Below the pieces are notes generated by a model. The model saw only the letters and a program-made list of their open reading frames with translations, did no database searches and was not told the origin of the DNA. Positions 18,596 through 40,500 of a stretch of DNA of 64,000 nt are shown one piece after another. The position numbers and the translations under genes are program-made. Every line of letters begins with the position of its first letter. The stretch's first letter is position 1. The stretch is taken from positions 248,001-312,000 of the forward strand of contig NZ_CP019304.1 of assembly GCF_001969265.1 (NCBI RefSeq), written 5' to 3'. The DNA is from Arthrobacter sp. QXT-31 (GTDB lineage: Bacteria > Actinomycetota > Actinomycetes > Actinomycetales > Micrococcaceae).

Positions 18596-20393
18596 CGTTC
18601 ACGTCACCTGCCGCTTGCTGTCTCAAGATATGACCGTCTGCCAGGGCCTGTTCGACCTCCCGTTTGGAGCGGCCAAGCTCGGCGGCGTCTTTGCGCTTGT
18701 GCCATTCCCGCAGATCCAGGAGGATCGGGCGGCTTCGTCGTCCGAGCATGAGCGCGGTGCCCGCCGGTAGGCGACGGATCTCGTGGAGCGGAAGAACCGG
18801 GCTTTCTCGGATCTGCTCCCCGTCCTGACGCCCTTGCGAGGACCAGGACCGGGTGTTGAGGGTGATGCTCCGTTCCCCCAGCAGTCCAGCCAGGGAGCGC
18901 AGATCACGTTCGTCGGAGCCGCCGCCGAAGATCACCTTGATGATGGCGGAGTCCCAGATGGTGGCTGCCTCATCGACGGACCAGCCGGTGCGTGCCTGGG
19001 AGAGGGACTGCAGGACAACAAGAGTGGAGATCCCGATGCCACCGCCGTCAGAAAGTACGATGGGCAGCCCCGGCCACGGAGCCAGGTTGGCAATCTCGTC
19101 AAGGATGAGGGACAGCGGTGGGTCGAGCCTGCCTCCCGGCGCCACAAAGGCCATCTCCCGGGCAGCGTTGTCGATGTCATCGATCAAGGCTGAAAGATAT
19201 GGCCCCGCCGCTGCGGCTCCCGCCCGGGTGCCGATCAGATAGAGGGTGCCGCGGTCCCGAATGAACTCCTTGGGCTCGAATTCCTCAGATTCGTCCTGGG
19301 GATCCAGGGCGGCAAGCACTTTGGGCGACGACAGGGGCGCAACCGCCGCCGAGACGCCGATCCACGAGTTGGAGGTGTTTCTCGGGTCGTCCTCGAGGAT
19401 ACCCATCAGATCTGCCTGCCAGCCCAGCGCTGCTTCTTTACGGCTCAGGATTTCGAGTGCTTCCCGTGCAAGAACCGGGCTGGACGACCAGCGGCGAAAC
19501 GCGCGGACCCCTTCCCCGGACAAGGCGGCGGCGTGGAGAAGGCACTGCAGGATGATCAGCGAGCGCTTCTGCCATGCGGCGTTCTCGCCTTTCATCTCGG
19601 TGTCCGCGGTGATGACGAGGGCGCGGCGGGTGGCGATGTCGGGGTTTTCGCATCCGCGGACAGGTGACCAGCGGAGGGTTGACGGCAACCCGGACATACC
19701 CTGCGGGTCGAACACAGTAACTGGCCGGCCACCGGTAGATCGGGCTTTCATGGTCACGGCCAGGTTGTCGGCACGTGTGGACGTTGTCACCACAGCACCC
19801 GGCGCATCGAGGATTGCGTTGATGATCACGTAGAGCCCCTTACCTGAGCGGGGAGCACCTTGGATGACCATCGACTCCTCCGTGGAGACATGGATCGTGA
19901 CACCGCGGGAACGGCCCAGCGTCCAGGCCACGTCCTGAATCCGGGGCTTGGTCAACCCTGGCCTTGTGACCTTTCCTCGTCTCCGAACAGCTCGGCTTCC
20001 GAAGTCCTGTTGAATTTCCGCGCGTCGGGCGATTCCTTCGCGGTTGAGAATGTCCAGGCGCAGCCATGCGCCTGATTGCTTCCACCTTCGCCATAGCACC
20101 CCACACCCAACGGCGAGCGCGGCCAGGGTGAGAAGCACTGGCCCGACGATCCACCAGATGGTGCCGGTCCCGACGTCGCACTGCTTCGGCTCACGGATGA
20201 TCCAATCGATTCGGCCGGCAAAGAGCCCGACGACGGCGGCAGGGTTGAACGGCGGCGGCCTACTACCGCCGCAGCGCCAAGACATAGCCAGATTTGCAGC
20301 GGCCTGGACCAGGAAGCAGAGACAGATGTAGCCGGCCGCGGAAACGAGTCCGGCGGTGAGCAGAGGATTTTCGGTACCTCGACGGGAACTCAT
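18585..20393 (-). CDS. Type IV coupling protein (VirD4/TraG)
   Basis: A 602-residue inner-membrane ATPase that would pass the relaxase-DNA complex to the secretion channel. N-terminal membrane segments lie at about 10-35 and 80-102. Walker A GAPRSGKG is at 179-186, and LSLILDEIANLAPWPGLP is the Walker B region with the TraM/relaxosome-recognition segment after it. The C-terminus is charged and helical. GAGGAC precedes the ATG at 20393. It is the fifth gene of the leftward operon. Confidence 0.9.
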   Translation of the reverse strand: MSSRRGTENPLLTAGLVSAAGYICLCFLVQAAANLAMSWRCGGSRPPPFNPAAVVGLFAGRIDWIIREPKQCDVGTGTIWWIVGPVLLTLAALAVGCGVLWRRWKQSGAWLRLDILNREGIARRAEIQQDFGSRAVRRRGKVTRPGLTKPRIQDVAWTLGRSRGVTIHVSTEESMVIQGAPRSGKGLYVIINAILDAPGAVVTTSTRADNLAVTMKARSTGGRPVTVFDPQGMSGLPSTLRWSPVRGCENPDIATRRALVITADTEMKGENAAWQKRSLIILQCLLHAAALSGEGVRAFRRWSSSPVLAREALEILSRKEAALGWQADLMGILEDDPRNTSNSWIGVSAAVAPLSSPKVLAALDPQDESEEFEPKEFIRDRGTLYLIGTRAGAAAAGPYLSALIDDIDNAAREMAFVAPGGRLDPPLSLILDEIANLAPWPGLPIVLSDGGGIGISTLVVLQSLSQARTGWSVDEAATIWDSAIIKVIFGGGSDERDLRSLAGLLGERSITLNTRSWSSQGRQDGEQIRESPVLPLHEIRRLPAGTALMLGRRSRPILLDLREWHKRKDAAELGRSKREVEQALADGHILRQQAAGDVNDDQ

Positions 20394-20402
20394 GGGCAGT
20401 CC

Positions 20403-21857
20403 TCAGAGCATCCGGGCGTCGGTGCCGAATACTTTCAACTCATCGGTCGTCACTCGGTTCGCCACGATGAAGGACCGGTTTCCAACCTTCCAGAGTCCAA
20501 CGCCCTTGGGGAGGTTCTCTACGTGCTCGCATTCAGCCTCAGAAAGTCCAAGTGCTTCCTTGGTCAGACGCATGGCATCGTGCTTTTGCCGGTAGATGAT
20601 CCTGGTATCTGCTTCAGTAAGCAGGCCGAGGGCTTTCTGTCGGTGACCGCTGGTGCTGTCGCCGATTTCATTGAGGTCAGCCACTTTGTGCATGATGAGC
20701 AGGTTCGCGATGCCGTACGTCCGCGCCAGGCGCCACTGTTCGCTCATCTTGGCGAGCATGTAGGGGTCGGCCAGCATGCGCCAGCCTTCGTCGTAGACCA
20801 CAAGCCGTTTGCCGCCGTCGGGATTGGTGACGGCCGCCTCGAGCCATGTGGCACCGCACGCGGCCGCGAGCGCGAGTGCTTGTTCGGAAGCGCCGATAAG
20901 TGCTGACGTGTCCATCACCATCATGGGTGCGTCGGCGTCGAAGGCAACGGTGGAAGGAGCGTCGAACATTCCTTCCAGGTCACCGGAGACCGTGCGCCGG
21001 AGAGAGTGTGCAACCGCCAGTCCGCCATCCTTGCCAACCAGCCCGACTGTTTCCTTGGACGGATTCAGGAGGTGGTCAAGCACCATCGGCAACGTCGGGT
21101 TCGAGTTCTCGGCAACGGTCTCTGTCAGTGCCATGTCCAAGGCCGTGTGCTCCACGGGCCGTAACGGCATGCCCTGCCGCATCAGAGAGACCAGCGCCAC
21201 GAGCAGGTAGCGACGGCGTTGACGCACCACAGCCTGCCACTGGGCCTCGCTCAGGGCACTTGAGCGCGGACCGGCGTCGAGCGGGTTGACGCGGGCCGGC
21301 CGGCCTGGACCGACTGAAATGACCTTGCCGCCGACCGCGTTGGCAACTGCGACCCATTCGCCCTTGGGGTCTGATGCGACGGCGGCTTTCCGCCCAAGGG
21401 TTATGGACCTGGCAACCAAGGACTTTCCGCACATTGACTTCCCGGTCCCGACGGTTCCTATGACGACGATCGAGGGGCCACTGATGACGCCCTTGTCATA
21501 GAGAATCCATGGGTCGTAGGAAAACGCCCCCGACCCGAAGACGTCCGTACCGATGTAGGTACCCTCGTGGCCCAGTCCTGATTCGGTGATAAACGGGTAG
21601 GCCGCTGCGAAAGTCATCGTGGACGCGCGGTGGGGTGCAGGGCGCAGGCGGTGAGGACCGCGGAGGGACTTCGGTTCTCGGCTCCCCCAGTCGCCGCCGC
21701 GCTCAGTCTTATCCAGCCGGGCGCCAAGCTTCTCGCTGAGGTTCTGAATCAGGGACCCGGAGACCGGGCTTGCGTTGGCGTCCTTTAGCCGTGGTCCCTT
21801 CTGCCGCCGCTTCGCGCCCGATGGCATGTACTGAACAGCCTGCGTTGCGCGCTTCAC
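20403..21857 (-). CDS. VirB4-like conjugation ATPase
   Basis: A 484-residue protein with Walker A GTVGTGKS at about 134-141, followed by SDPKGEW and INPLD-like (VNPLDAGPRS) segments, and a late KRLVVYDEGWRMLADPYM Walker B region, as in VirB4/TraC/TraE ATPases. The start is set at GTG 21857 because it forms a GTGA overlap with the upstream stop; an ATG at 21905 would overlap far more. The VirB4 N-terminal domain is missing here and seems to be supplied by the preceding SCO6880-like gene, a split common in actinobacterial systems. Confidence 0.85.
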   Translation of the reverse strand: MKRATQAVQYMPSGAKRRQKGPRLKDANASPVSGSLIQNLSEKLGARLDKTERGGDWGSREPKSLRGPHRLRPAPHRASTMTFAAAYPFITESGLGHEGTYIGTDVFGSGAFSYDPWILYDKGVISGPSIVVIGTVGTGKSMCGKSLVARSITLGRKAAVASDPKGEWVAVANAVGGKVISVGPGRPARVNPLDAGPRSSALSEAQWQAVVRQRRRYLLVALVSLMRQGMPLRPVEHTALDMALTETVAENSNPTLPMVLDHLLNPSKETVGLVGKDGGLAVAHSLRRTVSGDLEGMFDAPSTVAFDADAPMMVMDTSALIGASEQALALAAACGATWLEAAVTNPDGGKRLVVYDEGWRMLADPYMLAKMSEQWRLARTYGIANLLIMHKVADLNEIGDSTSGHRQKALGLLTEADTRIIYRQKHDAMRLTKEALGLSEAECEHVENLPKGVGLWKVGNRSFIVANRVTTDELKVFGTDARML

Positions 21858-23356
21858 CGTAGCCCCCGCCCGAACGGGAGCCCCCCGGCCACGAACGCTG
21901 CCCACTGCTGGCCAGCCAGCAGCCGCAATTCAACGAAGGCGCCCGCGGCGGCCGACTCCAGTTCTTGCCTGTACCGGGCCAGATCTTCGATCGTCGATCC
22001 GGTGATCGTCACGTAAGCGGCTGGCCGCACATCCCCGTGGCCCGCCACGATCTCTTCTTCGCGCTGTGCGACTTCTTCCTCCTCCGCCTTCTGCTCGCGG
22101 GTAAGTGGTCTGTCGAAGCGCGTGTTGATCCGTCTCCGGGTCTCATGGGCCTCCTGGGCAGAACGAATGTCGCGGAGTGCTTCAGTTGTCGGCACAGTCC
22201 GGATCACCTGGGTCACCGTGTGGCGGAATTCACCGACGTAGATAAGGGGGTGGAGAAAGCCCGGGAAGACCTTCTGCCGCGGCCATTCGGCTATCCAGAA
22301 CGTTTGGTGAAAGCCGGTGTCCGTCCGCACATACGTCCAGTGCTCCTCGACCGCCATGGGCGCAGCGAGGACGCTGGAAGTGGGCTCCGGCTGGTTCTGC
22401 CCCTCCGGTTCCGTTAGTACGCCGGCTTGTTGCCTGCCCGTGGTTGCTGCGGATGCTGGATCAAAGGCAGCCCGAACGATGTTGAGAAGGCCTGCCTCCG
22501 GCAGCCACTGGTCGACGCTGACGCTGTGTGTTCCTAAGGCGGTAGTCATAGCCTCGACTTCCAGCCGGAGTACCCGTTCGACGCCGAGGACTCCCCCGCC
22601 TGCCTCCCGTATCCGACGTCGGGCCTTGGCAATGTCCAGAACCAGAGTTAGCAACAACTCGTGACTCATGGCGGAACCAGCGGCAGCAATCAAGTCCTCG
22701 TAAGAGCGCTCGCCCCAGGTGCGTTCGTCGGAGTCACCGGTTTGCCGGCGGACTGTGCCTTCGTAGAAGTCACGAAGGGCCGAGGAGGGATACGGGACCG
22801 TGTAGTCCTGAACGGCGATCCTGGCCACGCAGCCCCGCTGGGCCAATCCTGCCTGTACCCTGGACCACGCCTGCACGGCCCAGGCTTTATCGTCGCCGTC
22901 CATGAGTGCGAACGACTTGGTGCTGCAGCGCAGTACGGCTATTGCCTCTTTGCCGCGGGAGTCCACTACGAACGACTCCCCGCGGGAAGCGCGGCGCAGC
23001 TCCAGGTTCCCCAACCCGCCCGGAAGCGCCAGCCGCCCAGCAAGGACAGGCCGCTCCGGCCGCATCAGGTAGCGGGTCTGTTTTGCGGCCAACCTGTAGA
23101 AGAACAGCACGGCATGGCTGATCCACACTGGGTAGGGAATCCGTGAGTACTGCAGCAATCCGAGCAGTATCAGAACTAGCCATAGCGGCCCGGCCGTGAA
23201 AAGGCCAACGGGTCCGCGCACTGCCGAAGCCACACAGCCCACGAGAACACCGGCCGCGAGCAGGAGCAGTTGGTACCATTTCAGGCCCATGAACAGGCCT
23301 CGGCGCTCGTACCGGGGGAACTTGACGGGTTCAAGAGTTCGAGAGTTTTCAGACAT
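21854..23356 (-). CDS. SCO6880-like conjugation protein (membrane, VirB3/VirB4-N-like)
   Basis: A 500-residue protein starting MSENSRTLEPVKFP. Two membrane helices span about 25-70 (YQLLLLAAGVLVGCVASAV, then LWLVLILLGLLQY), followed by a large soluble part including KSFALMDGDDKAWAVQAWSR. This is the pattern of SCO6880 proteins, which precede a VirB4-type ATPase in actinobacterial transfer operons and combine VirB3- and VirB4-N-like parts. Its ATG overlaps the TrbL-like stop by 8 bp, and its stop overlaps the ATPase GTG. Confidence 0.8.
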   Translation of the reverse strand: MSENSRTLEPVKFPRYERRGLFMGLKWYQLLLLAAGVLVGCVASAVRGPVGLFTAGPLWLVLILLGLLQYSRIPYPVWISHAVLFFYRLAAKQTRYLMRPERPVLAGRLALPGGLGNLELRRASRGESFVVDSRGKEAIAVLRCSTKSFALMDGDDKAWAVQAWSRVQAGLAQRGCVARIAVQDYTVPYPSSALRDFYEGTVRRQTGDSDERTWGERSYEDLIAAAGSAMSHELLLTLVLDIAKARRRIREAGGGVLGVERVLRLEVEAMTTALGTHSVSVDQWLPEAGLLNIVRAAFDPASAATTGRQQAGVLTEPEGQNQPEPTSSVLAAPMAVEEHWTYVRTDTGFHQTFWIAEWPRQKVFPGFLHPLIYVGEFRHTVTQVIRTVPTTEALRDIRSAQEAHETRRRINTRFDRPLTREQKAEEEEVAQREEEIVAGHGDVRPAAYVTITGSTIEDLARYRQELESAAAGAFVELRLLAGQQWAAFVAGGLPFGRGLR

Positions 23357-24746
23357 GGGTATCACTGTCAATCGGAGGCTTGGCCGTGGTTGGGGGGCGG
23401 ATGGGAGAAGGCGGCGCAGCCGCATCCGGAGAAGCAGTGGCAGCGGTGGGCGCCTTCGAAGGCGGGGACTGCGGCCCTTCCCTTATGGCGCTTGGCGGCG
23501 TTCCATTGCCGGACGCTCCCGGGTTCCAGTCCGGCTCACTGACGCCGCGTCGCGCTCGCGGAAACGATGCACCCTGACCCGACGTACCGCCGCCGAGCAT
23601 TAGAGCCGTGGTGTTCCCGCCGGAAGTGCGGGACGGCGTAGTGCCCATCAGTTGTTCCGGCAACGGCACCCTCGGCGGCAGCGCCCGAGTTGGAAACTGA
23701 GGCCGGCTCGACTGAACCGGCCGATTTGCGGCCGAGCGGCTGGCCAAGGCAGCCAGCGTCAAGTGTCCGCCCGTTTGGCGGGTGATCTGCCTGGCAGCAA
23801 AACCGGAGCTTCGGGAAAGGACATGCCCGCCGCCAGCGGTTTGGGCGGCAGCGGCCAGCTCGCCACCAGCGAAACTAACGAGTCGCAATGCCATCAATGG
23901 TGCGCCACAGGCCAGTGCCATGCCTACGACGCCGGCAGCGAGTCCGGCGAACGACTTGGAGTCGGCGAAAAGCTTGATGGCCACGGCAAGCACCGTCGCG
24001 GCGAGCGGTTTGGCGATAAGCAAAGCCACCACAATCTCGCCCCACCGCCGCGCCCACGATTGCGTCTTCTCCCAGGGCATCAGCATGAGAGCCACGGGTG
24101 CGACGGCGGCGAGCAAGATGAGGGCGAAAGACCGAAAGATCATCGAGCACATCAGGATGAAGGCCAGAATCCAGACAACGATAACGGCCATCGCCGTCAC
24201 GACTACGGCACCCCCTGCGCCCCCACTTGTCCCGGGAGCCAACGAGACAACATTCCAGTCTCTGCCCGAGTCTGCCGGCGCCTTCTCGAAGCCGAAGAGC
24301 CGCATGAACAGGACATAGGGGTCCGTAGCCAGGGAGTCCAGAAGCGCTGTTGCGGCCAAATCCCCAACCTTCGTGAGCTCCCGGACCAGGTAGACAGCAC
24401 CGGCCACCATCGGAACCGCGGCGGCACCGCCAACCAACGCACGGATCAGGCGGCGGGGCTGCTGGCTGATCAGTCCGGACAACAACTGGAGGATCATGGC
24501 AATGACGAGCGGTGTCATCATGACGACGACCCACCAGTTCGTCAGCCCCTTGACGGAGTCCCACTGGGAATCGTCAATGTCAGACGCGCCAAACGCACCC
24601 GTGATGAAGGACCATATCCAGGAAGCGACGTTTTCGAGAAGGTCGGCGAAGAACGCCGTGATGGAACTCTGGACACCGTCGTTCGCCTGCGAGACGAGAC
24701 CGCAGCCGGGCGGCCACCATCCGTTCAGATCGCACTCAACCGGCAT
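23349..24746 (-). CDS. TrbL/VirB6-like polytopic transfer protein
   Basis: A 465-residue protein with about six to eight transmembrane segments between residues 30 and 310, then a Pro/Ser/Ala-rich cytoplasmic tail. This matches TrbL/VirB6 proteins that form the inner-membrane part of a type IV secretion channel. The start MPVECDLNGWWPPGCG contains two Cys that may be disulfide-linked outside. It is the second gene of the operon, 12 bp after the small membrane protein. Confidence 0.8.
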   Translation of the reverse strand: MPVECDLNGWWPPGCGLVSQANDGVQSSITAFFADLLENVASWIWSFITGAFGASDIDDSQWDSVKGLTNWWVVVMMTPLVIAMILQLLSGLISQQPRRLIRALVGGAAAVPMVAGAVYLVRELTKVGDLAATALLDSLATDPYVLFMRLFGFEKAPADSGRDWNVVSLAPGTSGGAGGAVVVTAMAVIVVWILAFILMCSMIFRSFALILLAAVAPVALMLMPWEKTQSWARRWGEIVVALLIAKPLAATVLAVAIKLFADSKSFAGLAAGVVGMALACGAPLMALRLVSFAGGELAAAAQTAGGGHVLSRSSGFAARQITRQTGGHLTLAALASRSAANRPVQSSRPQFPTRALPPRVPLPEQLMGTTPSRTSGGNTTALMLGGGTSGQGASFPRARRGVSEPDWNPGASGNGTPPSAIREGPQSPPSKAPTAATASPDAAAPPSPIRPPTTAKPPIDSDTHV

Positions 24747-26181: not shown

Positions 26182-26214
26182 GTGCTAAAAAATCTATATC
26201 AGCGGATAGAGATT
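26182..26214 (+). promoter_or_regulatory. Stress box a (hsp20-1)
   Basis: GTGCTA, 3 nt, AATCT-N14-AGATT. It lies 32 bp before the hsp20 ATG at 26247. The spacing of GTGCTA to GATAGA (17 nt) could be a -35/-10 pair, with the AATCT/AGATT inverted repeat between and over them, as at MerR-type promoters. Shared with four other sites. Confidence 0.7.
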
Positions 26215-26246
26215 ATCCTTTTTACTGATGATCTGGGAGGTATGTG

Positions 26247-26672
26247 ATGTTGATGATGAATGATCCGTTCCGGCAGCTGGACCGGCTGGCCCAGCAGATG
26301 CTGGGCACGGCCGCGCACCCGGCGGCCATGCCACTGGATGCCTGGCGGGAAGAGAACGAGTTCGTCGTCGCGGTCGACTTGCCGGGCGTGGACGTGGACG
26401 CGATCGATGTTGATGTTGAGCGGAACGTCCTGACCATCCGGGCTGAGCGGAAGAACGGCGCCCCCGAAGGTGCCGAGCTGGTGGCCGGTGAGCGCCCGCA
26501 GGGCGTCTTCAGCCGGCAGCTGGTTTTGGGTGAGGCGCTGGATGCAGACAACGTGAAGGCCGGATATGACGGCGGGGTGCTGACCCTGCGCATCCCGGTC
26601 GCCGCCAAAGCGCAGCCGCGGAAGATCGAAATCACCAGCGGACACGGCGCCCAGCAGCAGCTCAGCGCCTAA
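26247..26672 (+). CDS. Small heat-shock protein Hsp20, copy 1
   Basis: A 141-residue alpha-crystallin chaperone that would hold unfolding proteins without ATP. A short N-terminus ([17 protein letters not shown]) precedes the crystallin domain at about 35-130: FVVAVDLPGVDVDAIDVDVE, then VLTIRAERK, the GVFSRQLVLGE loop and the signature strand [10 protein letters not shown]. The C-terminus ends PRKIEITSG, where an I-x-I anchor is visible. GGGAGG lies six bases before ATG 26247; GTG 26244 is in frame. It is driven by stress box a and closed by a strong hairpin. Confidence 0.95.
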   Translation: MLMMNDPFRQLDRLAQQMLGTAAHPAAMPLDAWREENEFVVAVDLPGVDVDAIDVDVERNVLTIRAERKNGAPEGAELVAGERPQGVFSRQLVLGEALDADNVKAGYDGGVLTLRIPVAAKAQPRKIEITSGHGAQQQLSA

Positions 26673-26688
26673 CCGCGGCAGCCAGGGT

Positions 26689-26740
26689 GGTGGTGCGTTC
26701 CCCGGTACCCGGGGAACGCACCACCAGCCCCTTTCGGGGA
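26689..26740 (+). terminator. Very strong hairpin after hsp20-1
   Basis: A 17-bp perfect stem (26689-26705 with 26709-26725) and a 3-nt loop, then a second small hairpin CCCC-TTTC-GGGG. It starts 16 bp after the hsp20 stop. There is no long T-run, as is usual in high-GC actinobacteria. Confidence 0.8.
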
Positions 26741-26782
26741 AGGTAATTACTCCGGGCATAGGGGAGGAAGTGTTTTGCCGCG

Positions 26783-27547
26783 ATGCCAGTCACACGCAAT
26801 GTTGCCTGGGACGGGCGTTTGGAGTCATTCAAGGGCAGGGATACCGTGCAGTACGTGCTCACTGCTGCCTCCATGGCCAGCACGTGCGCCGCCTGCAGGA
26901 CGCCTTTGGAGCCCGGTGAGCCGCTCTCACTGCTGGTGAACGTGACAGAAAGCACTGCCCCGGACGGGACCCATTACGTCACCTTCACCGACTGCGTCTG
27001 TCACCGCCGCTGCAGCGGCCCTGGCCTGAGCGTCGAGCAGGGCCAGTGGGCTCCCAACGAACTCACCCCCGTGGCCGCACGGATGGTTTTGACGCAGGCG
27101 TCCGGCAGCGGGCGGGAACGGCCGGTACCGGTGCTGGCCTACACCCTGGTCCCGGTGGTGGCGTTCCGTGAGGGTGGTGGTGACCTGACCTCGGCGCTGG
27201 TCTCGGTTCTGCTCTTTCACGGTTTTCAGCTGGCCTTGAGTCCGGATTTCGGCGACCTGGTCGAGGATGCCGTGGAAACGTCGGCCAGCTGCAGCATAGC
27301 TGTCACACGCGAGGGTCTGATGACCTTCAGCATCGGCGGCAGACTCCTGTTCCGGGATCAGCTGCGCCCCGATAATCCGGATGACGCCCTGTGGCTTGAG
27401 GGGGTGCGGGGCGGCGACCATGTCCTGGTCATCAGCGGGGACAACCTGGTCATCACAGCGGCCGGCCTGGACCTGCGTCACGCCGCCGCCCAGGGCACAC
27501 TGGTCGCCGGTGCAGTCCCTGTACGAACGGCCCCGGTGCGCACCTAG
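26783..27547 (+). CDS. Hypothetical protein with Cys-rich N-terminus
   Basis: A 254-residue protein. Near residues 34-77 it has CAACRTPLEPGEP and CVCHRRC, giving a possible four-Cys zinc site. The remainder is alpha/beta with PVLAYTLVPVVAFREGGGDLT onward and no known motif. GAGGAAG lies 13 bases before the ATG; a later ATG (MASTCAACR, 26867) is possible. It has no stress box and follows the hsp20-1 terminator, converging on the next gene. Not recognised. Confidence 0.55.
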   Translation: MPVTRNVAWDGRLESFKGRDTVQYVLTAASMASTCAACRTPLEPGEPLSLLVNVTESTAPDGTHYVTFTDCVCHRRCSGPGLSVEQGQWAPNELTPVAARMVLTQASGSGRERPVPVLAYTLVPVVAFREGGGDLTSALVSVLLFHGFQLALSPDFGDLVEDAVETSASCSIAVTREGLMTFSIGGRLLFRDQLRPDNPDDALWLEGVRGGDHVLVISGDNLVITAAGLDLRHAAAQGTLVAGAVPVRTAPVRT

Positions 27548-27584
27548 GCATCAGTCCCCACAGATCAGCCCCCAAAGAGGCGCC

Positions 27585-27977
27585 TCAGTCCACGAGCGGT
27601 GGTGGGCCGAAGAGGAATTCGTTGGCGTGGGACACGGCCTTGCGGAACGCGTCGTTCCTTAGGGTCACCAGATGCTCGGAATCTTCAATGCCGGGTTCCA
27701 GGAAGCCGGTAAAGCCGGGCCGCAGCATCCAGATATCCCCTGCCGGCGGCAGGTAGAACACCCCGAAGGAACGGTGCTGGCTGTCCTTCTCGTCGGTCCA
27801 GATGGGGACCACGGCCAGGGCGGCGCCGGTGGCGGGGTTGATCCACTGCGCCCGGGGCAGTGGTTCCTCGTGGGCCTCGGGATCCAAAAACGGTGCCGTG
27901 CCCTTGCCCCAGCGCTCCTCGAAGCGCTCGTGGAAGGCCGGGATCAGGTGGGAGTCGTAGCGGCGCCAGTCGCTCAT
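27585..27977 (-). CDS. Hypothetical protein, third gene of the hsp20-2 operon
   Basis: A 130-residue soluble protein rich in aromatics and Pro (MSDWRRYDSHLIPAFHERFE; GVFYLPPAGDIWMLRPGFTG). GAAGGAGGAA gives a strong ribosome site. It lies 37 bp after the J-domain gene on the same strand, so it is likely part of the box-e operon hsp20, J protein, this gene. No family recognised; a client- or cofactor-type role with the chaperones is inference. Confidence 0.6.
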   Translation of the reverse strand: MSDWRRYDSHLIPAFHERFEERWGKGTAPFLDPEAHEEPLPRAQWINPATGAALAVVPIWTDEKDSQHRSFGVFYLPPAGDIWMLRPGFTGFLEPGIEDSEHLVTLRNDAFRKAVSHANEFLFGPPPLVD

Positions 27978-28014
27978 CGTAAGGGTTCCTCCTTCAGATT
28001 CGGCATAGTGTTGC

Positions 28015-28455
28015 TTAGCTCCACGGGCCGCTCTCCCAGCGGACCGGAGTGACGCGCAGCGGCGGCTCCCTGCGCCGGACTATGCGGACCGGGACCACCT
28101 GCGGGCCGCTGGCGCGGCGTCCTTCCGGGGTCGGGCGTTCCTCCCGCTGCCCGGACACCGCAGGGTCCCCCGTTGCCGTTTTCTGCTGGTCCGGAGGGCG
28201 GCTTTCCCCGGCCTCGGGTCCGGTACGCCTGGTCCGCGCCGTTTCCCGGTCGTAGGCGTGCCGGCGCCCGGGGTCCCGGAGCACGGAAAAGGCTTCCATG
28301 ATCAGCTGCAGTTCCGCCGGTACGGCGTCAGCGCCGCCGACGTCCGGGTGGTGGCGGCGCACCAGCGCCCGGTAGGCGCGCGCGATTTCCTGCGGCGATG
28401 CGCCCCGGGAAACGTGCAGCACCGCGTAATGGTCCGGGACGGGAACGGTCATCAT
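28015..28455 (-). CDS. Short J-domain (DnaJ-like) co-chaperone
   Basis: A 147-residue protein with an N-terminal J domain (about 8-70): DHYAVLHVSRGASPQEIARA, RALVRRHHPDVGG with the HPD triad at 36-38, and FSVLRDPGRRHAYD. The J domain would stimulate DnaK ATPase. There is no Gly/Phe region, zinc centre or substrate domain; the tail is basic and disordered. It sits 137 bp after hsp20-2 in the same direction. GGGGGTG precedes two tandem ATGs (28455, 28452). Confidence 0.9.
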   Translation of the reverse strand: MMTVPVPDHYAVLHVSRGASPQEIARAYRALVRRHHPDVGGADAVPAELQLIMEAFSVLRDPGRRHAYDRETARTRRTGPEAGESRPPDQQKTATGDPAVSGQREERPTPEGRRASGPQVVPVRIVRRREPPLRVTPVRWESGPWS

Positions 28456-28591
28456 GAACACCCCCAGCCACCGAAAGGGCCGGTGCAGGGCAGCTTTCCG
28501 GCGGCCCGGTCCCCGGTCTGAGCCTCTCCCGGGCCGGGTGAAGTCCCAAGCCGGGGAACGGGCGGCCGCCCCCTCGCATGCGCCGCAGGGG

Positions 28592-29017
28592 CTAGGTTTC
28601 GATCTGCTGTTGCTGGCCCTTGCTTTCGATCTCGATCTTCCGCGGCTTGGCCTGCTCGGCAACCGGAATACGCAGCGTCAGCACGCCGACGTCGTAGCTG
28701 GCCTTGATATTGTCCGTATCCAGGGTGTCACCGAGAATGAGCTGGCGGCTGAAGACACCGCGCGGCCGTTCGGAAACCACCAGCTCGACGTTGGGCTGCG
28801 TGGCGTCACGGCGCTCCGCCCGAACGGTGAGGACGTTCCGTTCAACGTTCAGATCCACGTCGTCAGGAGAGATCCCGGGCAGGTCAAACGCCACCACAAA
28901 CTCCCCATCTTCCTGCCACGCGTCCATCGGCATGGCCGCCGGACGGGCCGCTGTTCCGAAGACCTGCTGGGTGAGCCGGTCCAGCTCACGGAACGGGTCA
29001 GTACGGATCAACATCAT
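28592..29017 (-). CDS. Small heat-shock protein Hsp20, copy 2
   Basis: A 141-residue alpha-crystallin chaperone close to copies 1 and 3: [61 protein letters not shown] and [10 protein letters not shown], with [10 protein letters not shown] at the end. Ribosome site GGGAGTGGG; ATG 29017 with a second ATG at the next codon. It is first in a leftward operon with the J-domain gene and divergent from the HspR-like regulator, with stress box e between them. Confidence 0.95.
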
Positions 29018-29067
29018 TTCCCACTCCCTTCAGCATCCAGGTTTCATGGCTACCCACCGCCATGGTT

Positions 29068-29102
29068 TATCTGTGACGGTGAATATAGATTTTTTATAGC
29101 AC
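29068..29102 (-). promoter_or_regulatory. Stress box e (hsp20-2 operon)
   Basis: Read leftward: GTGCTA (29102-29097), 5 nt, AATCT (29091-29087), N14, AGATA (29072-29068). It lies 50 bp before the hsp20-2 ATG and beside the palindrome at 29099-29119. The most divergent copy in the N14 part. Confidence 0.65.
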
Positions 29103-29119
29103 CAGTGCGAAACTGGTGC
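29099..29119 (+). promoter_or_regulatory. Palindrome at the regulator promoter
   Basis: GCACCAGT-GCGAA-ACTGGTGC, perfect 8-bp arms with a 5-nt spacer, overlapping the GTGCTA end of box e and 33 bp before the regulator ATG at 29152. It could be an autoregulatory operator of the MerR-type gene or a 5' mRNA hairpin. Confidence 0.5.
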
Positions 29120-29151
29120 AAGAGGAACAGCGGGCATTGACGGGACAGCAG

Positions 29152-29466
29152 ATGACAAACCAACGCAGCAGCGGGCGCGCCCTGTACGCCATATCGGTCG
29201 TGGCGGAACTCCTGGGAACAGGCCAGCAGAACATCCGGCTCTATGAACGCCGCGGCCTGCTCACCCCGAAAAGGACCGAAGGCGGCACCCGCCAATACAG
29301 CGAAGCGGACCTTGCCGTTCTGCGTCGCATCGGAGAGCTCCTGGATGACGGGCTCAACCTCGCCGGCGTTGCTAAGGTGCTCGAACTGGAAATGGACAAC
29401 GCACGCCTCCGGCGCCTACTCAAGCGCGCCCGCACCTCCGCGCAGCAGGACAACCAAAAGGAATAG
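29152..29466 (+). CDS. HspR-like MerR-family regulator
   Basis: A 104-residue protein. ALYAISVVAELLGTGQQNIR is the helix-turn-helix, LYERRGLLTPKRTEGGTRQY the MerR wing, and LRRIGELLDDGLNLAGVAKV with LELEMDNARLRRLLKR the dimer helix. This is the arrangement of HspR, the repressor of dnaK and other heat-shock operons in actinobacteria. No HAIR-type site (CTTGAGT-N7-ACTCAAG) was seen near these genes, so it may read the GTGCTA/AATCT box instead. ATG 29152 was preferred; GTG 29116 lies inside the palindrome and lacks a ribosome site. The universal stress gene follows 8 bp later. Confidence 0.85.
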   Translation: MTNQRSSGRALYAISVVAELLGTGQQNIRLYERRGLLTPKRTEGGTRQYSEADLAVLRRIGELLDDGLNLAGVAKVLELEMDNARLRRLLKRARTSAQQDNQKE

Positions 29467-29474
29467 GGCAAAAG

Positions 29475-30299
29475 GTGACGATTAGCGCGGTGCTGGCTGT
29501 CGGTTACGACGGCTCCGAACAGTCCCTCCTTGCCCTGAAGTGGGCGGCGGATTACGCCACGGCCGCACGGACCGGGCTGCGGATCATCCATGCCTGGATC
29601 TGGCCACTCTTCACACAGGACGTGGGACCGGTCAAAGGGGTGGCTGACAGCGGATTGCGTCACGCAGCCGAAGTCATTCTCGACGAAGGCTGCAAACTCG
29701 CAGCGGAAATCTCACCAAACCTGAAGGTGGAGCCCCGCATGGTGGCCGGACTGCCGGCGGCCGTCCTGCGCCAGGAGTCCCTCGACGCAAGCCTGCTGGT
29801 GGTTGGAAGCCGCGGACTGGGCGGCCTGCTCGGCAAACTGGTCGGTTCCGTCTCCCTTGACCTGGCCGGAGGATCCCCCTGCCCCCTCGTCGTCGTGCGG
29901 AGCCGGCGCGGGGAAGGCCAACCGGTAGTCGCCTGCGTGGACGGGCACCTGCGCAGCAGCAAGGTTCTGGAGCAATCAGTGCGTGCAGCCCGGGCCCTTG
30001 ACACAGGGCTGCAGATCGTTCATGCAGAACAGCCCGAACCGCCCTGGAAGGCACACACTGCCCCGACAGCGCATTCCAAGGCTGTGCTGCACAACGCCAT
30101 GCTCTGGGTACAGGCGATGGACCCGGACCTGGCCGCCACAGAACAACTGCTGAGCAGGCAACCCGTGTCGGCCGCGCTGATCGATGCAGGGGCAGACGCC
30201 GAACTGTTGGTCCTCGGTGCCCACGGACGGCAAGGCCACCCCGGAACGCTAACGTCTGTTCTGACTCAGGCACGCTGCAACATCCTGATCGCCCGATAG
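29475..30299 (+). CDS. Universal stress protein with two Usp domains
   Basis: A 274-residue tandem UspA protein. Domain one (about 1-140) has AVGYDGSEQSLLALKWAADY and LLVVGSRGLGGLLGKLVGSV, the G-x2-G-x9-G-S/T type ATP-binding loop. Domain two (about 145-274) has PVVACVDGHLRSSKVLEQSV and ELLVLGAHGRQGHP, a weaker loop. Such proteins bind ATP and support survival in stasis and heat. Start GTG 29475, 8 bp after the regulator, so the two are probably one operon. Confidence 0.9.
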   Translation: MTISAVLAVGYDGSEQSLLALKWAADYATAARTGLRIIHAWIWPLFTQDVGPVKGVADSGLRHAAEVILDEGCKLAAEISPNLKVEPRMVAGLPAAVLRQESLDASLLVVGSRGLGGLLGKLVGSVSLDLAGGSPCPLVVVRSRRGEGQPVVACVDGHLRSSKVLEQSVRAARALDTGLQIVHAEQPEPPWKAHTAPTAHSKAVLHNAMLWVQAMDPDLAATEQLLSRQPVSAALIDAGADAELLVLGAHGRQGHPGTLTSVLTQARCNILIAR

Positions 30300-30757
30300 C
30301 GCTTGGGCCAGGGTCCCGGGGACAGTGGCGGGCTCAACGTAAGGTTCTTGCAGTTAAGGGCTATGTGGAACCCTGCTACGGGCTTGACCGTCAGCCCTCC
30401 CGGTCCGCGGGGTGACACGAGTGTCAACGGCAATTTTGTAATGAACCGGGCGCGGCATGTTGGTTTACGGCGGCCCTTGGCTGCACGAAAGTCACCGCGG
30501 GCGTGTTGCGGCTGGCCTTTAGTCATCTCCGCCCGGGACCTCCGTCTGGTTCGGGCTGTCCAATGGGCGGTTACGGCCGGAGCTGGATCGGGTTCTCTCC
30601 TGCGCTGGTCCCAACGCTCAGCCGGTCAGGACGCGTCCTTGCCCTGATGAGCCTCCGGCGTGCCGGAGGCCCCCGCCGGCGGGATGGACTGCCAGCCCAG
30701 CGGCCTGAAAGCGGTGACTCGCTTAAACCGCAGGCAGATGGCCGCCGTTCGTCAGGA
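30300..30757. other. Intergenic region with hairpins, possible IS remnant
   Basis: About 460 bp without a supportable gene. It holds a palindrome TGACACGAGTGTCA (30413-30426), followed by CAACGGCAATTTTGTAATGA, which recalls ends of some insertion sequences, and a hairpin CCTCCGGC-GT-GCCGGAGG (30652-30669) that could end transcription. No transposase frame is seen. Confidence 0.35.
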
Positions 30758-31078
30758 TCATGTTTTGGGTGGGCGGCCGGTGGTGGCCCGGGAGATCCAT
30801 GACCTGATCCCTGGGTGCCGGCCGGAGGGTGCCTGCGGCAGGTTCCTGGTCTGTTCGTCGGTGAGTGAACAGTAAACGTGTGTGGTTGTCATCCGCTCGA
30901 TGGAGTCGCGCGCCACGAACCTGGGTCCCTGGCCCGTCCTGACGATGATTCCGTGAAGGATGAGACCTTTGTCGTCGTCCAGGACACGGTCCAGTGTTCC
31001 GAAAGCGCGTCCTGACCGGGAGACAACAGGTGTTCCTCTCCCCAGTGCCGTGTACGCAACCGGGCGGCCTTCTTCCAT
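30758..31078 (-). CDS. PRC-barrel-like small protein
   Basis: A 106-residue protein starting MEEGRPVAYTALGRG, with GTPVVSRSGRAFGTLDRVLD then GLILHGIIVRTGQG and RFVARDSIERM, the strand order of PRC-barrel domains found in photosynthetic reaction-centre H and RimM-like proteins and in many stress proteins. GGAGG lies ten bases before ATG 31078. It is 268 bp downstream of hsp20-3 on the same strand and may be read from box b. The last 25 residues are low complexity. Confidence 0.65.
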   Translation of the reverse strand: MEEGRPVAYTALGRGTPVVSRSGRAFGTLDRVLDDDKGLILHGIIVRTGQGPRFVARDSIERMTTTHVYCSLTDEQTRNLPQAPSGRHPGIRSWISRATTGRPPKT

Positions 31079-31345
31079 TACTCCCACACCTCCTTCGCCG
31101 GGTGACCGCGGCCGCACCGGGAGCGGCAAGCCGGGAGGATGACTGTAGCCCCCTGGCCCAGGCCGCGGATGAGCCGGCCCGGGCAGGCGGCGAAACGGTT
31201 CCCGGCCAGAACTGGCCGGAAACCGCCGGCGGGACGGCCCGTGCGCTGCTGCTGCATGTGCGCTAAATAGGCGCGGTGGCGTTCCTTCTGTGCCTTCCCG
31301 CCCAACGAGGCAGCGTTGGCGTGTAACGGGAACCGTCCCGGTCTG

Positions 31346-31771
31346 TTAGGCAGCGTCAATCTGGCGCTGCTGGCCTCCTTTGACTTCGATATCGATCTTT
31401 CGCGGCTTTGCCTGCGCCGCGACGGGGATGCGCAGGGTCAGGACGCCGGCGTCGTAATCGGCCGTCATCTTCTCCGTGTCCATGGCATCCCCCAGGATGA
31501 GCTGGCGGCTAAAGACACCGCGCGGCCGCTCCGACACGACCATCTCCGTGCCCTCCCCGGCAGGGTCCTTCCGTTCTGCGCTCACGGTCAGGACGTTCCT
31601 GTCCACGCCCAGGTCAATGGAGCTGACGTCCACGCCGGGCAGGTCCAGTGCAAAGATGTAGTCATCGCCGTCGCGCCAGGCGTCCATTGGCATGGCCGCC
31701 GGGTGGGCGACGGTGCCCAGCACCTGCTCGGCCAGGCGGTCCAGCTGACGGAATGGATCGAGCATCAACAT
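31346..31771 (-). CDS. Small heat-shock protein Hsp20, copy 3
   Basis: A 141-residue alpha-crystallin chaperone: [70 protein letters not shown] and a C-terminal [15 protein letters not shown] lies six bases before ATG 31771. It is driven by stress box b, 29 bp upstream, divergent from the tRNA-Lys. All three copies keep the GVFSRQL and LTLRIPVA segments. Confidence 0.95.
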
Positions 31772-31800
31772 GGCATACCTCCTTGATCACCATCGATCCA

Positions 31801-31833
31801 GATCTGTATCCGCTGACATAGATTTAATAGCAC
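31801..31833 (-). promoter_or_regulatory. Stress box b (hsp20-3)
   Basis: Read leftward: GTGCTA (31833-31828), 3 nt, AATCT (31824-31820), N14, AGATC (31805-31801). The middle TCAGCGGATA is identical to that of box a and nearly that of box d. Confidence 0.7.
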
Positions 31834-31904
31834 TGCCCCGCCCGGTCCGCAAGGGGTATCCGGCAATTTTTTGGCCGGTGGCCTCTTGCTTGCGCCCGTC
31901 GGCG

Positions 31905-31938
31905 GTGCTAATAAAATCTATAGCGGACGATGCAGATT
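31905..31938 (+). promoter_or_regulatory. Stress box c (tRNA-Lys)
   Basis: GTGCTA (31905-31910), 4 nt, AATCT (31915-31919), N14, AGATT (31934-31938). It points right toward tRNA-Lys, whose mature 5' end is 59 bp downstream, and back to back with box b, 71 bp away. Confidence 0.65.
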
Positions 31939-31997
31939 GACTGGGGTTGGCGAGTGAACTGTCGGGAAGCAGTGATGGGATGCTTTCAGGCAAAGGT

Positions 31998-32070
31998 GCA
32001 CCTGTAGCTCAGCCGGTAGAGCAGGGGACTTTTAATCCTCGGGTCGTGGGTTCGAGCCCCACCGGGTGCA
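31998..32070 (+). tRNA. tRNA-Lys(UUU)
   Basis: A 73-nt gene that folds well: acceptor GCACCTG with CGGGTGC, D stem GCTC/GAGC, anticodon arm GGGGA-CTTTTAA-TCCTC with anticodon TTT, T arm GTGGG-TTCGAGC-CCCAC, discriminator A, CCA not encoded. It lies within the stress cargo, downstream of box c and upstream of a small protein gene. The AAA codon it prefers is rare in such GC-rich genomes. Confidence 0.9.
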
Positions 32071-32152
32071 CCCCTGAATGCGCCTGCTGCGCCGGCCGCT
32101 CCCGCTTTCCAGCCGCTGCCCTTCGTGCCGTGCAGCCCATGAAAGGTGGTGG

Positions 32153-32407
32153 ATGCAGATGAACGCGGAACTGCAGCGGTTGCGCGCCCTGGCGGCGATG
32201 ATGGCAAACGCCGAAACTACCCTGGACGTGGCCCGCCGGACGCTGCGGGAATGCTCGGCGGCGCTGCTGCGCACCGGAGAGGCCACCCTTGCCGAGGTCA
32301 GTGAAGCCACCGGCCTGAACCAGGGCGAACTGCTGGACCTGCTCAGCCGGAACCATCCGGGAAGGGAACCGGTCTGGAATAAACCTCGGCCCGGCGGTCT
32401 GTCCTGA
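32153..32407 (+). CDS. Small helical protein with HTH-like end
   Basis: An 84-residue protein, starting MQMNAELQRLRALAAMMANA. All helical; the second half, TGEATLAEVSEATGLNQGEL followed by LDLLSRN, looks like a winged or simple HTH. GAAAGGTGG precedes ATG 32153; ATG 32159 is possible. It follows tRNA-Lys by 82 bp and may share its transcript from box c. No family recognised. Confidence 0.6.
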   Translation: MQMNAELQRLRALAAMMANAETTLDVARRTLRECSAALLRTGEATLAEVSEATGLNQGELLDLLSRNHPGREPVWNKPRPGGLS

Positions 32408-32925
32408 CGGTCAGGGCGGTGCACCAGCGGACATCACATCATCCCGGGATGACCAGCCAGCACCTGGCCACAGTGCGTTTTCCGGGAATAAACAGAGGTG
32501 TGAAATCCATGCCGGAGCCCGGCGCCGCCCGCAACGTCGTCACGCCAGGCAGGAACGCAGGAAGACACCCTTCCACAAATCCGGGCACGCCCTGCCGGGG
32601 AATGCTGCAGCCAGGAGCCGACCCGATAAGGAAAATCTCCATCATCCCCAGGGGGTCGGTCCCCGGGAGTGACCCTGTCATGAGGCAGCAGGCATCCGGC
32701 AGTACCCCGGCAGCCGAGGCAAGCGGGCCAGCGGCGGGCCACGCCAAGCCGCCGGCCGGCCCTGCCCAGTCCGGCACGAGAGGTACATTCCCATGCTTAC
32801 GCTCGGCACCGACAGCCGCACCCCGCACCTGAGACCTTGTGAGGAGGCCAAGGCCCAGGCGGCCTGCACCCGCTGTGGTCGCGGAACGGCGGTTATAAAA
32901 ATCTCTTGCCAGTAATTTGCTGCCG
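32408..32925. other. Intergenic region, no supported gene
   Basis: About 520 bp. A forward frame from ATG 32509 (AGAGGTG nine bases upstream) encodes a Pro/Gly/Ala-rich sequence without recognisable structure and is probably not a gene. Two AT-rich spots near 32890-32945 lead into box d. Confidence 0.4.
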
Positions 32926-32959
32926 GTGCTATTTAAATCTATGGCAGCGGATACAGATC
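32926..32959 (+). promoter_or_regulatory. Stress box d
   Basis: GTGCTA (32926-32931), 4 nt, AATCT (32936-32940), N14, AGATC (32955-32959). It lies 56 bp before the gene at 33016. Confidence 0.7.
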
Positions 32960-33015
32960 AGACGTCATTTCAGATTTGCTCCGTATCAAGACGGGAATCG
33001 ATCAGGGAGGGAACC

Positions 33016-33336
33016 ATGGCGATTCAATACATGGATGACGGTTTTGCCCCGCACGTGGACCGCGGGCTCGCCACAGCAAGGACCCGGCTTGAACCAGGCC
33101 AACTGGGCCCGGACCGGAACGGGGAGGCTGAGAAGCATTCGCGGTCCATGGTCGAACACATCCTCGCCCTTGAACCCGAACGTGTCCCGGCCGTCACTGC
33201 CGAACTGTTCACCGAAGCGATTGCCATCGCCAATGCAGTCCGCCAGGCACAGGGACGGGGGCCGGTCACTTCCTTCCGGGCAAGGGACTTCTGGGAAATC
33301 CTCAAAGACCTAATCGACAGTGTCCTGGAACAGTAA
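33016..33336 (+). CDS. Hypothetical protein controlled by stress box d
   Basis: A 106-residue acidic helical protein: MAIQYMDDGFAPHVDRGLAT, HILALEPERVPAVTAELFTE and FRARDFWEILKDLIDSVLEQ. AGGGAGGG lies just before the ATG. It has the same upstream box as the hsp20 genes, which ties it to the stress response. Not recognised; it has no signal peptide or membrane segment. Confidence 0.65.
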   Translation: MAIQYMDDGFAPHVDRGLATARTRLEPGQLGPDRNGEAEKHSRSMVEHILALEPERVPAVTAELFTEAIAIANAVRQAQGRGPVTSFRARDFWEILKDLIDSVLEQ

Positions 33337-39255: not shown

Positions 39256-40386
39256 CTAACTACGCCAGATCACGGCGGATCTCTCGACCGCGTCAGCGGC
39301 ATCCTGGAGGGCTTGCGGCATCAGGTGGCCGTAGACCTGCTCCGTCGTACGAGTGGATGCGTGCCCCAGCCGCCGGGAGACCGTGAACAGGGAAACGCCA
39401 TCCTGGATCAGCCAGGACGCATGGGTATGGCGCAGATCGTGGATTCGCGGCGACTTCTTAAGGCCGCGGGCCTGCGCCGCCGCCACTGCGGGGACCCAGT
39501 AGTGATGCCAGTAAAGCTTGTGAATGATCCGCTCACCCTTGGGCGTCGTGAACAGCAAGTCTGAACCAGGTCGGCTGGCCACGAGTGGGACGAGAATTTC
39601 CACCAACTGAGGGTTTAGCGATACGGTGCGCTTGCCTGCACCCGTCTTGGTCGCACCAATGTAGAACTCCGAATTGGTGCCGCGTTTCCACGCCTTATTG
39701 ATCCGCATAGTTGCCGGCTTGGACATGAGGTCGATGTCCCCCACGGTTACGGCAGTTGCCTCTCCAAAGCGTAGTCCCGTCATAACCAGGAACTCTGTAA
39801 ACGCCTTGTACCGCTCCCCCATGCACTCGAGGATGAGCCCGAATTCAGCATGCGTCAGGAACCGGGCCTCGTCCTCCGCCTTCTCACTGGACGGAAGCTG
39901 AACACGCTGGCACGGGTTGTCCTTCCGGTAGCGCAGCATCACTGCCGTCTCCATGGCCCCATAGATCAGGGCATGGTTGTTCTTGATCGTCTTAGGCGAC
40001 CTACCCTTAGCCTGCATTGACTTGATCCAGTGGGTCACGTGCCGATAGTCAAGCTTGTCGACTGGAATGTGCCCTATGACGTCGGCGATGTGCAGCTTCA
40101 GCATCGTTTGGTACGTGTGGACAGTCCCTACGGAGGGTCGCACCAATAAATCGATGTGTTCCTGGATTACCGCAGCCACAGTCGGGGCCTTCGTCTGATT
40201 CTTGACCATCGCGTGCTGCGCGATCTCGAACGATTGATCGTTCGCGTCCAGGAGCCGTTTCAGGGTTTGGGCTTCAGCCGCGGTAGAGAAGGTGATTCCT
40301 TCTTGCTTCCGCGTTTTCGGGTTGCGCCAGCGGACTGTGAACGAGGTGGATCCGTCCGCTTTTTTTCGCTCCCAAATGCTGGCCAT
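39256..40386 (-). CDS. Tyrosine integrase of the element
   Basis: A 376-residue tyrosine recombinase. An N-terminal arm-binding part (ADGSTSFTVRWRNPKTRK) and a SAM-like core-binding domain (65-150) precede the catalytic domain with Arg in MTGLRFGEA (R206), HDLRH (H316, R319), H342 in LGHAST and the nucleophile Y352 in TEQVYGHL. It would insert the circular element at the tRNA-Leu gene. The ATG at 40386 lies 89 bp from the tRNA 3' end. No clear ribosome site is seen. Confidence 0.95.
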   Translation of the reverse strand: MASIWERKKADGSTSFTVRWRNPKTRKQEGITFSTAAEAQTLKRLLDANDQSFEIAQHAMVKNQTKAPTVAAVIQEHIDLLVRPSVGTVHTYQTMLKLHIADVIGHIPVDKLDYRHVTHWIKSMQAKGRSPKTIKNNHALIYGAMETAVMLRYRKDNPCQRVQLPSSEKAEDEARFLTHAEFGLILECMGERYKAFTEFLVMTGLRFGEATAVTVGDIDLMSKPATMRINKAWKRGTNSEFYIGATKTGAGKRTVSLNPQLVEILVPLVASRPGSDLLFTTPKGERIIHKLYWHHYWVPAVAAAQARGLKKSPRIHDLRHTHASWLIQDGVSLFTVSRRLGHASTRTTEQVYGHLMPQALQDAADAVERSAVIWRS

Positions 40387-40474
40387 GGGCAAAATTTTAG
40401 GCCTGGTGTGCACAGAAAACGAGCTTTTGTGCACACCCTCAGCCTGAACCCGGCCCTGACCTGCGAAAACACTG

Positions 40475-40500
40475 TGCCCGAGGTGGGACTCGAACCCACA
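40475..40500 (-). other. Probable attachment site core (tRNA-Leu 3' end)
   Basis: The 3' part of the tRNA (T arm and acceptor) faces the integrase, so this is the likely att core that restores the tRNA after insertion. The other copy must lie left of the window; no second copy was found within it. The exact crossover is not visible. Confidence 0.55.

Follow-up and report, generated by a model that had tools for sequence, protein, structure and literature searches.

A putative promoter-operator box of Arthrobacter small heat-shock genes, its predicted HspR-like regulator and their expansion on a mobile island

What is the function of a short DNA box that recurs five times, each time close to the start of a gene, in one cluster of stress genes on a conjugative element of Arthrobacter sp. 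QXT-31, and which protein reads it? The cluster lies in a 64-kb stretch (the window, positions 248,001 to 312,000 of contig NZ_CP019304.1) of a 5.04-Mb host genome that is a single contig, and a first-pass annotation had described it as a stress-tolerance island with its own promoter box, GTGCTA-N3..5-AATCT-N14-AGAT (the strict pattern below). All five boxes exist where they had been placed, AATCT and AGAT are exactly 14 nt apart in all five, and GTGCTA precedes AATCT by 3–5 nt; the distances to the next gene start, given as 29–59 bp, are all short but measure 30–60 nt (36, 51, 30, 60 and 57 nt), the choices of start codon being different. The evidence below suggests that the box is a promoter joined to an operator and that it is probably read by a short regulator, here called HspR2, whose gene lies beside the second box. 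These features are:

26182-26213, plus strand: box 1, predicted promoter -10 plus operator; the start of hsp20 A is 36 nt past its last base
29069-29102, minus strand: box 2, in the gap that separates hsp20 B from the divergent hspR2; start 51 nt past its last base
31802-31833, minus strand: box 3, 5' of hsp20 C; start 30 nt past its last base
31905-31937, plus strand: box 4, 5' of tRNA-Lys and p84; start 60 nt past its last base
32926-32958, plus strand: box 5, 5' of u106; start 57 nt past its last base
29152-29466, plus strand: hspR2, encoding a short MerR-type HspR-like regulator of 104 aa (PF13411, 73.1 bits), divergent to hsp20 B

The five boxes were confirmed at their stated places and far exceed what chance would give. 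In the window AATCT-N14-AGAT has 7 matches at 5 places (two of them on both strands) where 0.12 are expected, GTGCTA-N3..5-AATCT has 5 matches where 0.02 are expected, and none of 100 shuffled windows attained the observed count of either half-pattern. The whole genome holds 10 exact copies of the strict pattern and none of its reversed control; five copies are in the window and five at C1:5,020,910-5,031,258, in a second island (below). A palindromic-pattern search of the same genome gave 11 matches, every one inside the islands, and none for its control, and a one-mismatch search, made genome-wide for the 5-nt spacing (the palindromic pattern covers the other spacings in this genome), added core sites at C1:3,044,763 and C1:3,398,740; this and the counts of genus hspR2, box and control matches and of hspR2 genomes outside the genus below are among the matches listed. 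The boxes do not stand at random genes: the 12 known sites of this genome (two islands and two core loci) face hsp20 eight times (A, B and C of each island, one at 3,044,763 and one at 3,398,740), a unit of tRNA-Lys(UUU) and the gene p84 twice, and u106 genes twice. The first-pass annotation had set every box at a gene start, which holds for four at protein starts, while the fourth faces tRNA-Lys(UUU) at 31997-32073 and then an 84-aa gene. Among 30 loci of relatives (L013-L042), hsp20 is the target of the focal box in 29 and a tRNA/p84 unit in one (L021).

The build of the box was read from 71 distinct boxes (at most one mismatch) from Arthrobacter loci chosen for having a box or p84, which are not an unbiased sample and in which the AATCT/AGAT letters are set by the search pattern. 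Their targets are hsp20 (54, one of which, in L016, bears an overlapping and probably spurious tRNA-Val call), tRNA with p84 (9), u106 (4), p84 (1) and u254 (1), with none found for 2. TTGC or TTGA precedes the TA of GTGC-TA in 69 of the 71, by 17 nt in 61 and by 18 nt in 8; this -35 element is absent from the search pattern and is therefore independent evidence for a housekeeping-type promoter with an extended -10. Dyad positions T7 and A18, also outside the search pattern, pair in 94% of the sites. The gap between GTGCTA and AATCT is 2 nt in 3 boxes, 3 nt in 34, 4 nt in 3 and 5 nt in 31, a variation that fits two elements of separate function. The box thus reads as a putative housekeeping-type promoter (TTGC, 17–18 nt, extended -10 in GTGC-TA) followed by the dyad AATCT-N14-AGAT. 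GTGCTA, which had been counted as part of the box, is indeed conserved and is better read as promoter -10; as an operator half it was considered and rejected, its distance to the -35 being constant and its distance to the dyad variable (2–5 nt). A 17-nt spacer has no need of untwisting and an operator just 3' of the -10 is in a blocking position, and repression is therefore the likelier mode of action of the regulator.

That HspR2 probably reads the box, as had been proposed for the MerR/HspR-like protein of the island, is supported by co-occurrence in the genus and beyond. In a first sample of 199 genomes (this genome, 120 of the genus and 78 of other families) the strict pattern was present in this genome, in 89 of the 120 and in 0 of the 78. 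In the genus set of 206 genomes hspR2 (match at E ≤ 1e-20) is present in 192, and the 5-nt-spaced box with at most one mismatch was found in 186 of these 192 and in 0 of the 14 without hspR2; the reversed control box matched in 2 of the 206. Outside the genus, 18 genomes with hspR2 (match of at least 76.8 bits, best match 46–65% identical) all have hsp20 upstream on the opposite strand, within 182 nt in 15. The same 5-nt-spaced box (at most one mismatch) is present in nine of these 18 versus 0 of 18 without hspR2, with 0 of 36 for the reversed control, and each of the nine has one site, adjoining hspR2. ATCT-N14-AGAT is complete (8/8 letters) in 8 of the 15 close hspR2-hsp20 gaps, a score that at most 1% of shuffles reach. 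On these comparisons the box is a predicted genus-wide promoter-operator of small heat-shock genes, with a related form 5' of hsp20 in other families of the order. The claim that it is the island's own was not upheld, and a box private to the island is rejected, as it stands 5' of core hsp20 genes throughout the genus.

Several observations weigh against this reading. One genome without hspR2 at the above threshold (G055) yet has a strict 3-nt-spaced box 5' of hsp20, six hspR2-positive genomes (G112, G232, G119, G014, G092 and G110) are without the 5-nt-spaced box, and the hspR2 match of G092 does not adjoin hsp20. Nine of the 18 hspR2 genomes outside the genus have no box match, two of the nine matches there (G388 and G179) are weak, their last half overlapping a ribosome-binding-like AGGAGGT, and the other 7 of the 15 gaps score 7/8 letters, a level attained by 5–20% of shuffles. 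The co-occurrence also partly reflects common descent of one linked locus, and the canonical HspR, present in the host, could share sites. At least one box match in the genus (G228 C2) looks like chance. As the control of hsp20 in one further family of small genomes (f4), which may be bifidobacteria, the box was rejected: among 13 hsp20 upstream regions none has the full dyad and one has 7/8 letters, and palindromes resembling the HspR-associated inverted repeat (HAIR) stand in 7 of the 13 (6 found by script, 1 by eye).

HspR2 belongs to the MerR family (73.1 bits against a PF13411 cut-off of 21.6), and it scores 85.6 bits with the NCBIfam HspR equivalog NF047375, under the curated cut-off of 105. 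The canonical HspR of the host scores 142 bits with the same model and its gene lies directly behind dnaJ; hspR2 is linked to hsp20 and is not placed in the dnaK-grpE-dnaJ operon. In a tree, a 100/99 branch divides 28 hspR2 rows, among them one Rhodococcus plasmid copy, from 5 rows of dnaJ-linked hspR, and by this phylogeny HspR2 is a clade apart from canonical HspR; the island copies group with the core copies of the genus. The core locus at C1:3,044,420 holds hspR2, a one-mismatch box, hsp20, a J-protein gene and the gene of a 129-aa protein. HAIR sites with at most two mismatches are absent from the 64-kb window, and the exact HAIR pattern has one copy in the genome. As a separate observation, this sole exact site (C1:640590; L054 around 1501) lies just 5' of a frame that by our own reading resembles a Clp ATPase, and such a target fits a separate canonical HspR regulon.

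The explanation that we favour, with reasonable though not full confidence, is a mobile heat-shock regulon in which an HspR2 dimer on its operator would repress hsp20 and its own gene until stress. The dimer would bind the AATCT-N14-AGAT operator directly 3' of the -10, block transcription of hsp20 and of the divergent hspR2, and let go under heat or folding stress. The sensor would perhaps be DnaK together with the J-protein of the cluster; given the analogy with HspR and the presence of this J-protein gene, a DnaK-linked release would fit. In other genera HspR2 seems to have a single target, the hsp20 next to it, and Arthrobacter core genomes appear to have one or two hsp20 genes for it to serve. 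On the mobile islands the operator is predicted at five units, and one signal would there switch on three Hsp20 proteins, tRNA-Lys(UUU) with p84, and u106, presumably to the benefit of the host. The least expected of these targets is the unit behind box 4:

31997-32073, plus strand: tRNA-Lys (anticodon UUU), a second isoform (ARAGORN; Rfam RF00005, 68.9 bits; alignment)
32153-32407, plus strand: p84, encoding an 84-aa protein with a weak HTH_35 match under the cut-off

The cloverleaf and UUU anticodon of the island tRNA-Lys were confirmed; the window copy and the housekeeping tRNA-Lys are 86% identical over 66 nt and have different acceptor stems. The AlphaFold2 model of p84 (mean predicted local distance difference test score, pLDDT, 83.6) has a long helix and two short helices and by our own reading may be helix-turn-helix-like; a fold search with it gave no match at E ≤ 0.001. 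In the genus set p84 is present in 16 of the 206 genomes, at 17 loci. Immediately upstream of p84, the 11 closest loci (at least 65% identity) have a tRNA-Lys(UUU) or what is left of one (10 of them with a tRNA call by ARAGORN, two of these calls with an undefined 4-base anticodon), and in nine the box is directly 5' of the tRNA (with one mismatch in G211, and 2-nt spaced in G276 and G211); the six more distant loci have no tRNA upstream.

A second tRNA-Lys(UUU) under the HspR2 operator would mean that heat raises chaperones and one tRNA together, a possibility that we put forward tentatively. The chances seem about even that the tRNA is instead a passenger in the p84 leader with no role in stress, which is compatible with the explanation of the box given above. 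Plasmid relatives (below) show the order box-hsp20-u106-p84 with no tRNA, the six distant p84 loci lack one, and the tRNA is altered in four of the 11 close loci while p84 stays open there (an extra base in both the anticodon loop and the T arm in G249 and G209, a T arm one base short in G103, and in G234 the 3' part alone, fused to a broken box). Against a passenger, nine loci compared in 36 pairs keep 89–100% identity in the tRNA body and diverge in the flanks (upstream 50 nt, no more than 78% in 35 pairs; downstream 50 nt, no more than 72% in 29 pairs), seven of the 11 look intact by our own reading, and nine have the box directly 5'. A conserved body between diverged flanks suggests that selection acts on the tRNA in most carriers and that some copies are decaying. 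Lysine codon use gives no reason for the tRNA (11 AAA and 24 AAG in 11 island genes); a stress-switched tRNA, if true, might replace tRNA-Lys lost or cut in stress, or favour island or stress messages. As for individual copies, the tRNAs of G249 (L058 1361-1435) and G209 (L059 1816-1890) have an extra T in the anticodon loop and an extra G in the T arm, either decay or a shifted-frame reader. In G102 (L066 1280-1429) a tRNA-Gln(CTG) stands directly 5' of the tRNA-Lys, the p84 relative has an internal stop, and the sequence further upstream holds a box and what remains of an hsp20.

The other genes of the window island are:

26250-26672, plus strand: hsp20 A (PF00011, 75.5 bits; ATG start, with a GTG at 26244)
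26783-27547, plus strand: u254, encoding a 254-aa protein of no family (no Pfam or NCBIfam match; relatives in related islands)
27585-27977, minus strand: u130, encoding a 130-aa protein, a member of the core hsp20 cluster (no Pfam match; a core copy exists)
28015-28455, minus strand: J-domain protein gene (PF00226, 57.6 bits)
28592-29017, minus strand: hsp20 B (PF00011, 83.2 bits)
29475-30299, plus strand: tandem universal stress protein gene (PF00582, two stretches)
30758-31078, minus strand: gene of a 106-aa protein, PRC-barrel-like through a plasmid relative only (no Pfam match; the 62%-identical relative is annotated PRC-barrel)
31346-31771, minus strand: hsp20 C (DNA repeat of hsp20 B, 72–78%)
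32443-32680, plus strand: ftsH remnant (41% over 86 aa at 32443-32655; 32530-32680 has 84% DNA identity to the intact ftsH of the second island)
33016-33336, plus strand: u106, encoding a 106-aa protein of no family (no Pfam match; present in plasmid operons)
33440-33575, plus strand: remnant of a flavin mononucleotide (FMN) reductase-like gene, which follows u106 in the second island

The three hsp20 genes, J-domain gene, HspR-like gene and tandem universal stress protein gene of the first-pass annotation are all present, hsp20 A and B by Pfam and C by its DNA repeat with B; its PRC-barrel-like gene has no Pfam match and owes that name to the annotated plasmid relative. The conjugative setting also stood, through these features:

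8013-11615, plus strand: TrwC-type relaxase gene (PF08751, 255 bits)
18585-24746, minus strand: transfer genes (TraG/TraD coupling protein, unassigned frames, and a TrbL-like protein under its curated cut-off)
39256-40614, minus strand: tyrosine integrase frame (PF00589, 84.9 bits), overlapping tRNA-Leu at 40474-40556

The relaxase, coupling protein and TrbL-like protein are encoded left of the island; right of it are the gene of an NlpC/P60 protein, the integrase frame at tRNA-Leu and, beyond this, the genes of pyruvate kinase and glutamate synthase. Together the relaxase, coupling protein, transfer genes and integrase make up the gene set of an integrative conjugative element, of which the integrase at tRNA-Leu is the probable right end; neither the window nor the 40 kb further left yielded a left attachment repeat. 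Elsewhere on this element, 12517-16242 encodes a 1241-aa protein with a SIR2-like domain, possibly anti-phage, and 16840-17997, beside the transfer genes, a protein that combines an ArdC N-terminal domain with a metallopeptidase-like one and may act against restriction.

The second island has ten units in common with the window, at 70–97% protein identity and with u106 relocated; it has an intact 714-aa FtsH frame after p84 where the window keeps a remnant. Two further genes of the second island (L012 24-1943) are missing or disrupted in the window island: one is FMN-reductase-like, and the other, a 406-aa frame, resembles by our own reading a glycogen-debranching N-terminal domain. A close p84 is present in nine other genomes: five (G276, G211, G234, G210 and G103) carry most of the block hsp20 A/u254/u130/J/hsp20 B/hspR2 beside it, three (G249, G209 and G002) have only hsp20 C with the tRNA/p84 unit, and G102 has remnants. 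Two Arthrobacter plasmids, pSI-1 (typed as mobilizable) and the one of FW306-05-C (typed as conjugative), bear one box each of the same type, 3-nt and 2-nt spaced, respectively, followed in order by hsp20, u106 and a p84-like gene (49% on pSI-1, 42% on the other), with ftsH and a further hsp20 nearby.

Could the islands be ordinary duplications of the core locus rather than mobile stress islands? Their hspR2-hsp20-J-130aa genes are 51–96% identical to the core cluster at C1:3,044,420, and island hspR2 clusters with the core hspR2 of the genus, as duplication would have it. We think it unlikely: the p84/tRNA unit, u106 and hsp20 A and C, for which no core copy was seen, are common to plasmids and other genomes, conjugation genes flank the window island, and p84 is present in just 16 of 206 genomes.

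It is rather less probable still that the box is the promoter of an alternative stress sigma factor, with the dyad incidental. In its favour, conservation covers the entire box as one unit, and the targets are stress genes; however, a TTGC -35 at 17–18 nt and a TA-rich -10 look housekeeping, the site tracks hspR2 in both presence and place, and the distance between dyad and GTGCTA varies by a few nt (2–5 nt). We give as little weight to HspR2 as a classical MerR activator that untwists its promoter, in spite of its place in the MerR family by Pfam. MerR activators use 19–20 nt spacers; the spacer here is 17–18 nt in 69 of the 71 boxes, and the dyad stands after the -10, not between it and the -35. 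Canonical HspR as the reader of the box is very improbable, for although it is present in the host (142 bits), its known HAIR site differs and is nearly missing here (one exact copy in the genome, none at two or fewer mismatches in the window), the 18 genomes without hspR2 have no box, and the hsp20 regions of family f4 have HAIR-like palindromes (7 of 13) and no full ATCT-N14-AGAT (0 of 13).

If HspR2 acts as proposed, the heat-shock control of a large bacterial order would gain a second HspR-like repressor that has an operator of its own, and this would show how many of that order's small heat-shock genes are switched. Stress islands on mobile actinobacterial DNA would also have a defined regulon, the counterpart of the transmissible locus of stress tolerance (tLST), and a functional tRNA-Lys target would be a direct link from a heat-shock repressor to the supply of tRNA. 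A search of titles and abstracts, with subscription journals mostly outside coverage, turned up neither this operator nor a second HspR linked to hsp20 nor heat control of a tRNA-Lys; in the excerpt consulted, a study of bifidobacteria describes the control of hsp20 there as unsettled (PMC9004370).

How, then, does this system compare with known ones? With HspR/HAIR it would share the kind of regulator (a MerR-family heat-shock repressor), a palindromic operator, chaperone targets and probable autoregulation; it differs in that HspR2 is under the curated HspR cut-off, is linked to hsp20 and not to dnaK, has another predicted operator and forms a separate clade. RheA, the repressor of hsp18 in Streptomyces, is likewise a dedicated repressor beside a small heat-shock gene, but its regulator family and operator are different from those of HspR2. 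The Arthrobacter plasmid clusters (pSI-1 and FW306-05-C) share box, an hsp20 A-like gene, u106, the p84-like gene and FtsH with the islands and differ in that no tRNA was found in either stretch. On the Rhodococcus opacus plasmid pKNR (L127 5973-7019) hsp20 is divergent to a MerR gene and a DnaJ gene is nearby, as here, but the box between them has three mismatches and no tRNA was found in the stretch; this arrangement may be the system reaching another order. A Streptomyces plasmid stretch with an hsp20 cluster differs in having no box at three or fewer mismatches. The tLST of Gram-negative bacteria, in the part of its description consulted, begins with a Mer-like gene and includes small Hsp20 and FtsH (PMC8290217), and the likeness to it that had been claimed holds in content, no tLST sequence having been compared: the islands are transferable clusters with small Hsp20 genes and a Mer-like gene, and FtsH is a remnant in the window, an intact 714-aa frame in the second island and an annotated gene on the plasmids. 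ClpK/ClpG was not among the proteins matched in general library scans, which included no dedicated ClpK search. The islands differ from the tLST in the regulator divergent to hsp20, the box at each unit, and the tRNA-Lys, universal stress protein and J-protein genes. HspR-type repressors and mobile stress loci are thus already known; what appears to be new is a distinct HspR-like operator system that is expanded on mobile DNA and has a tRNA gene among its predicted targets.

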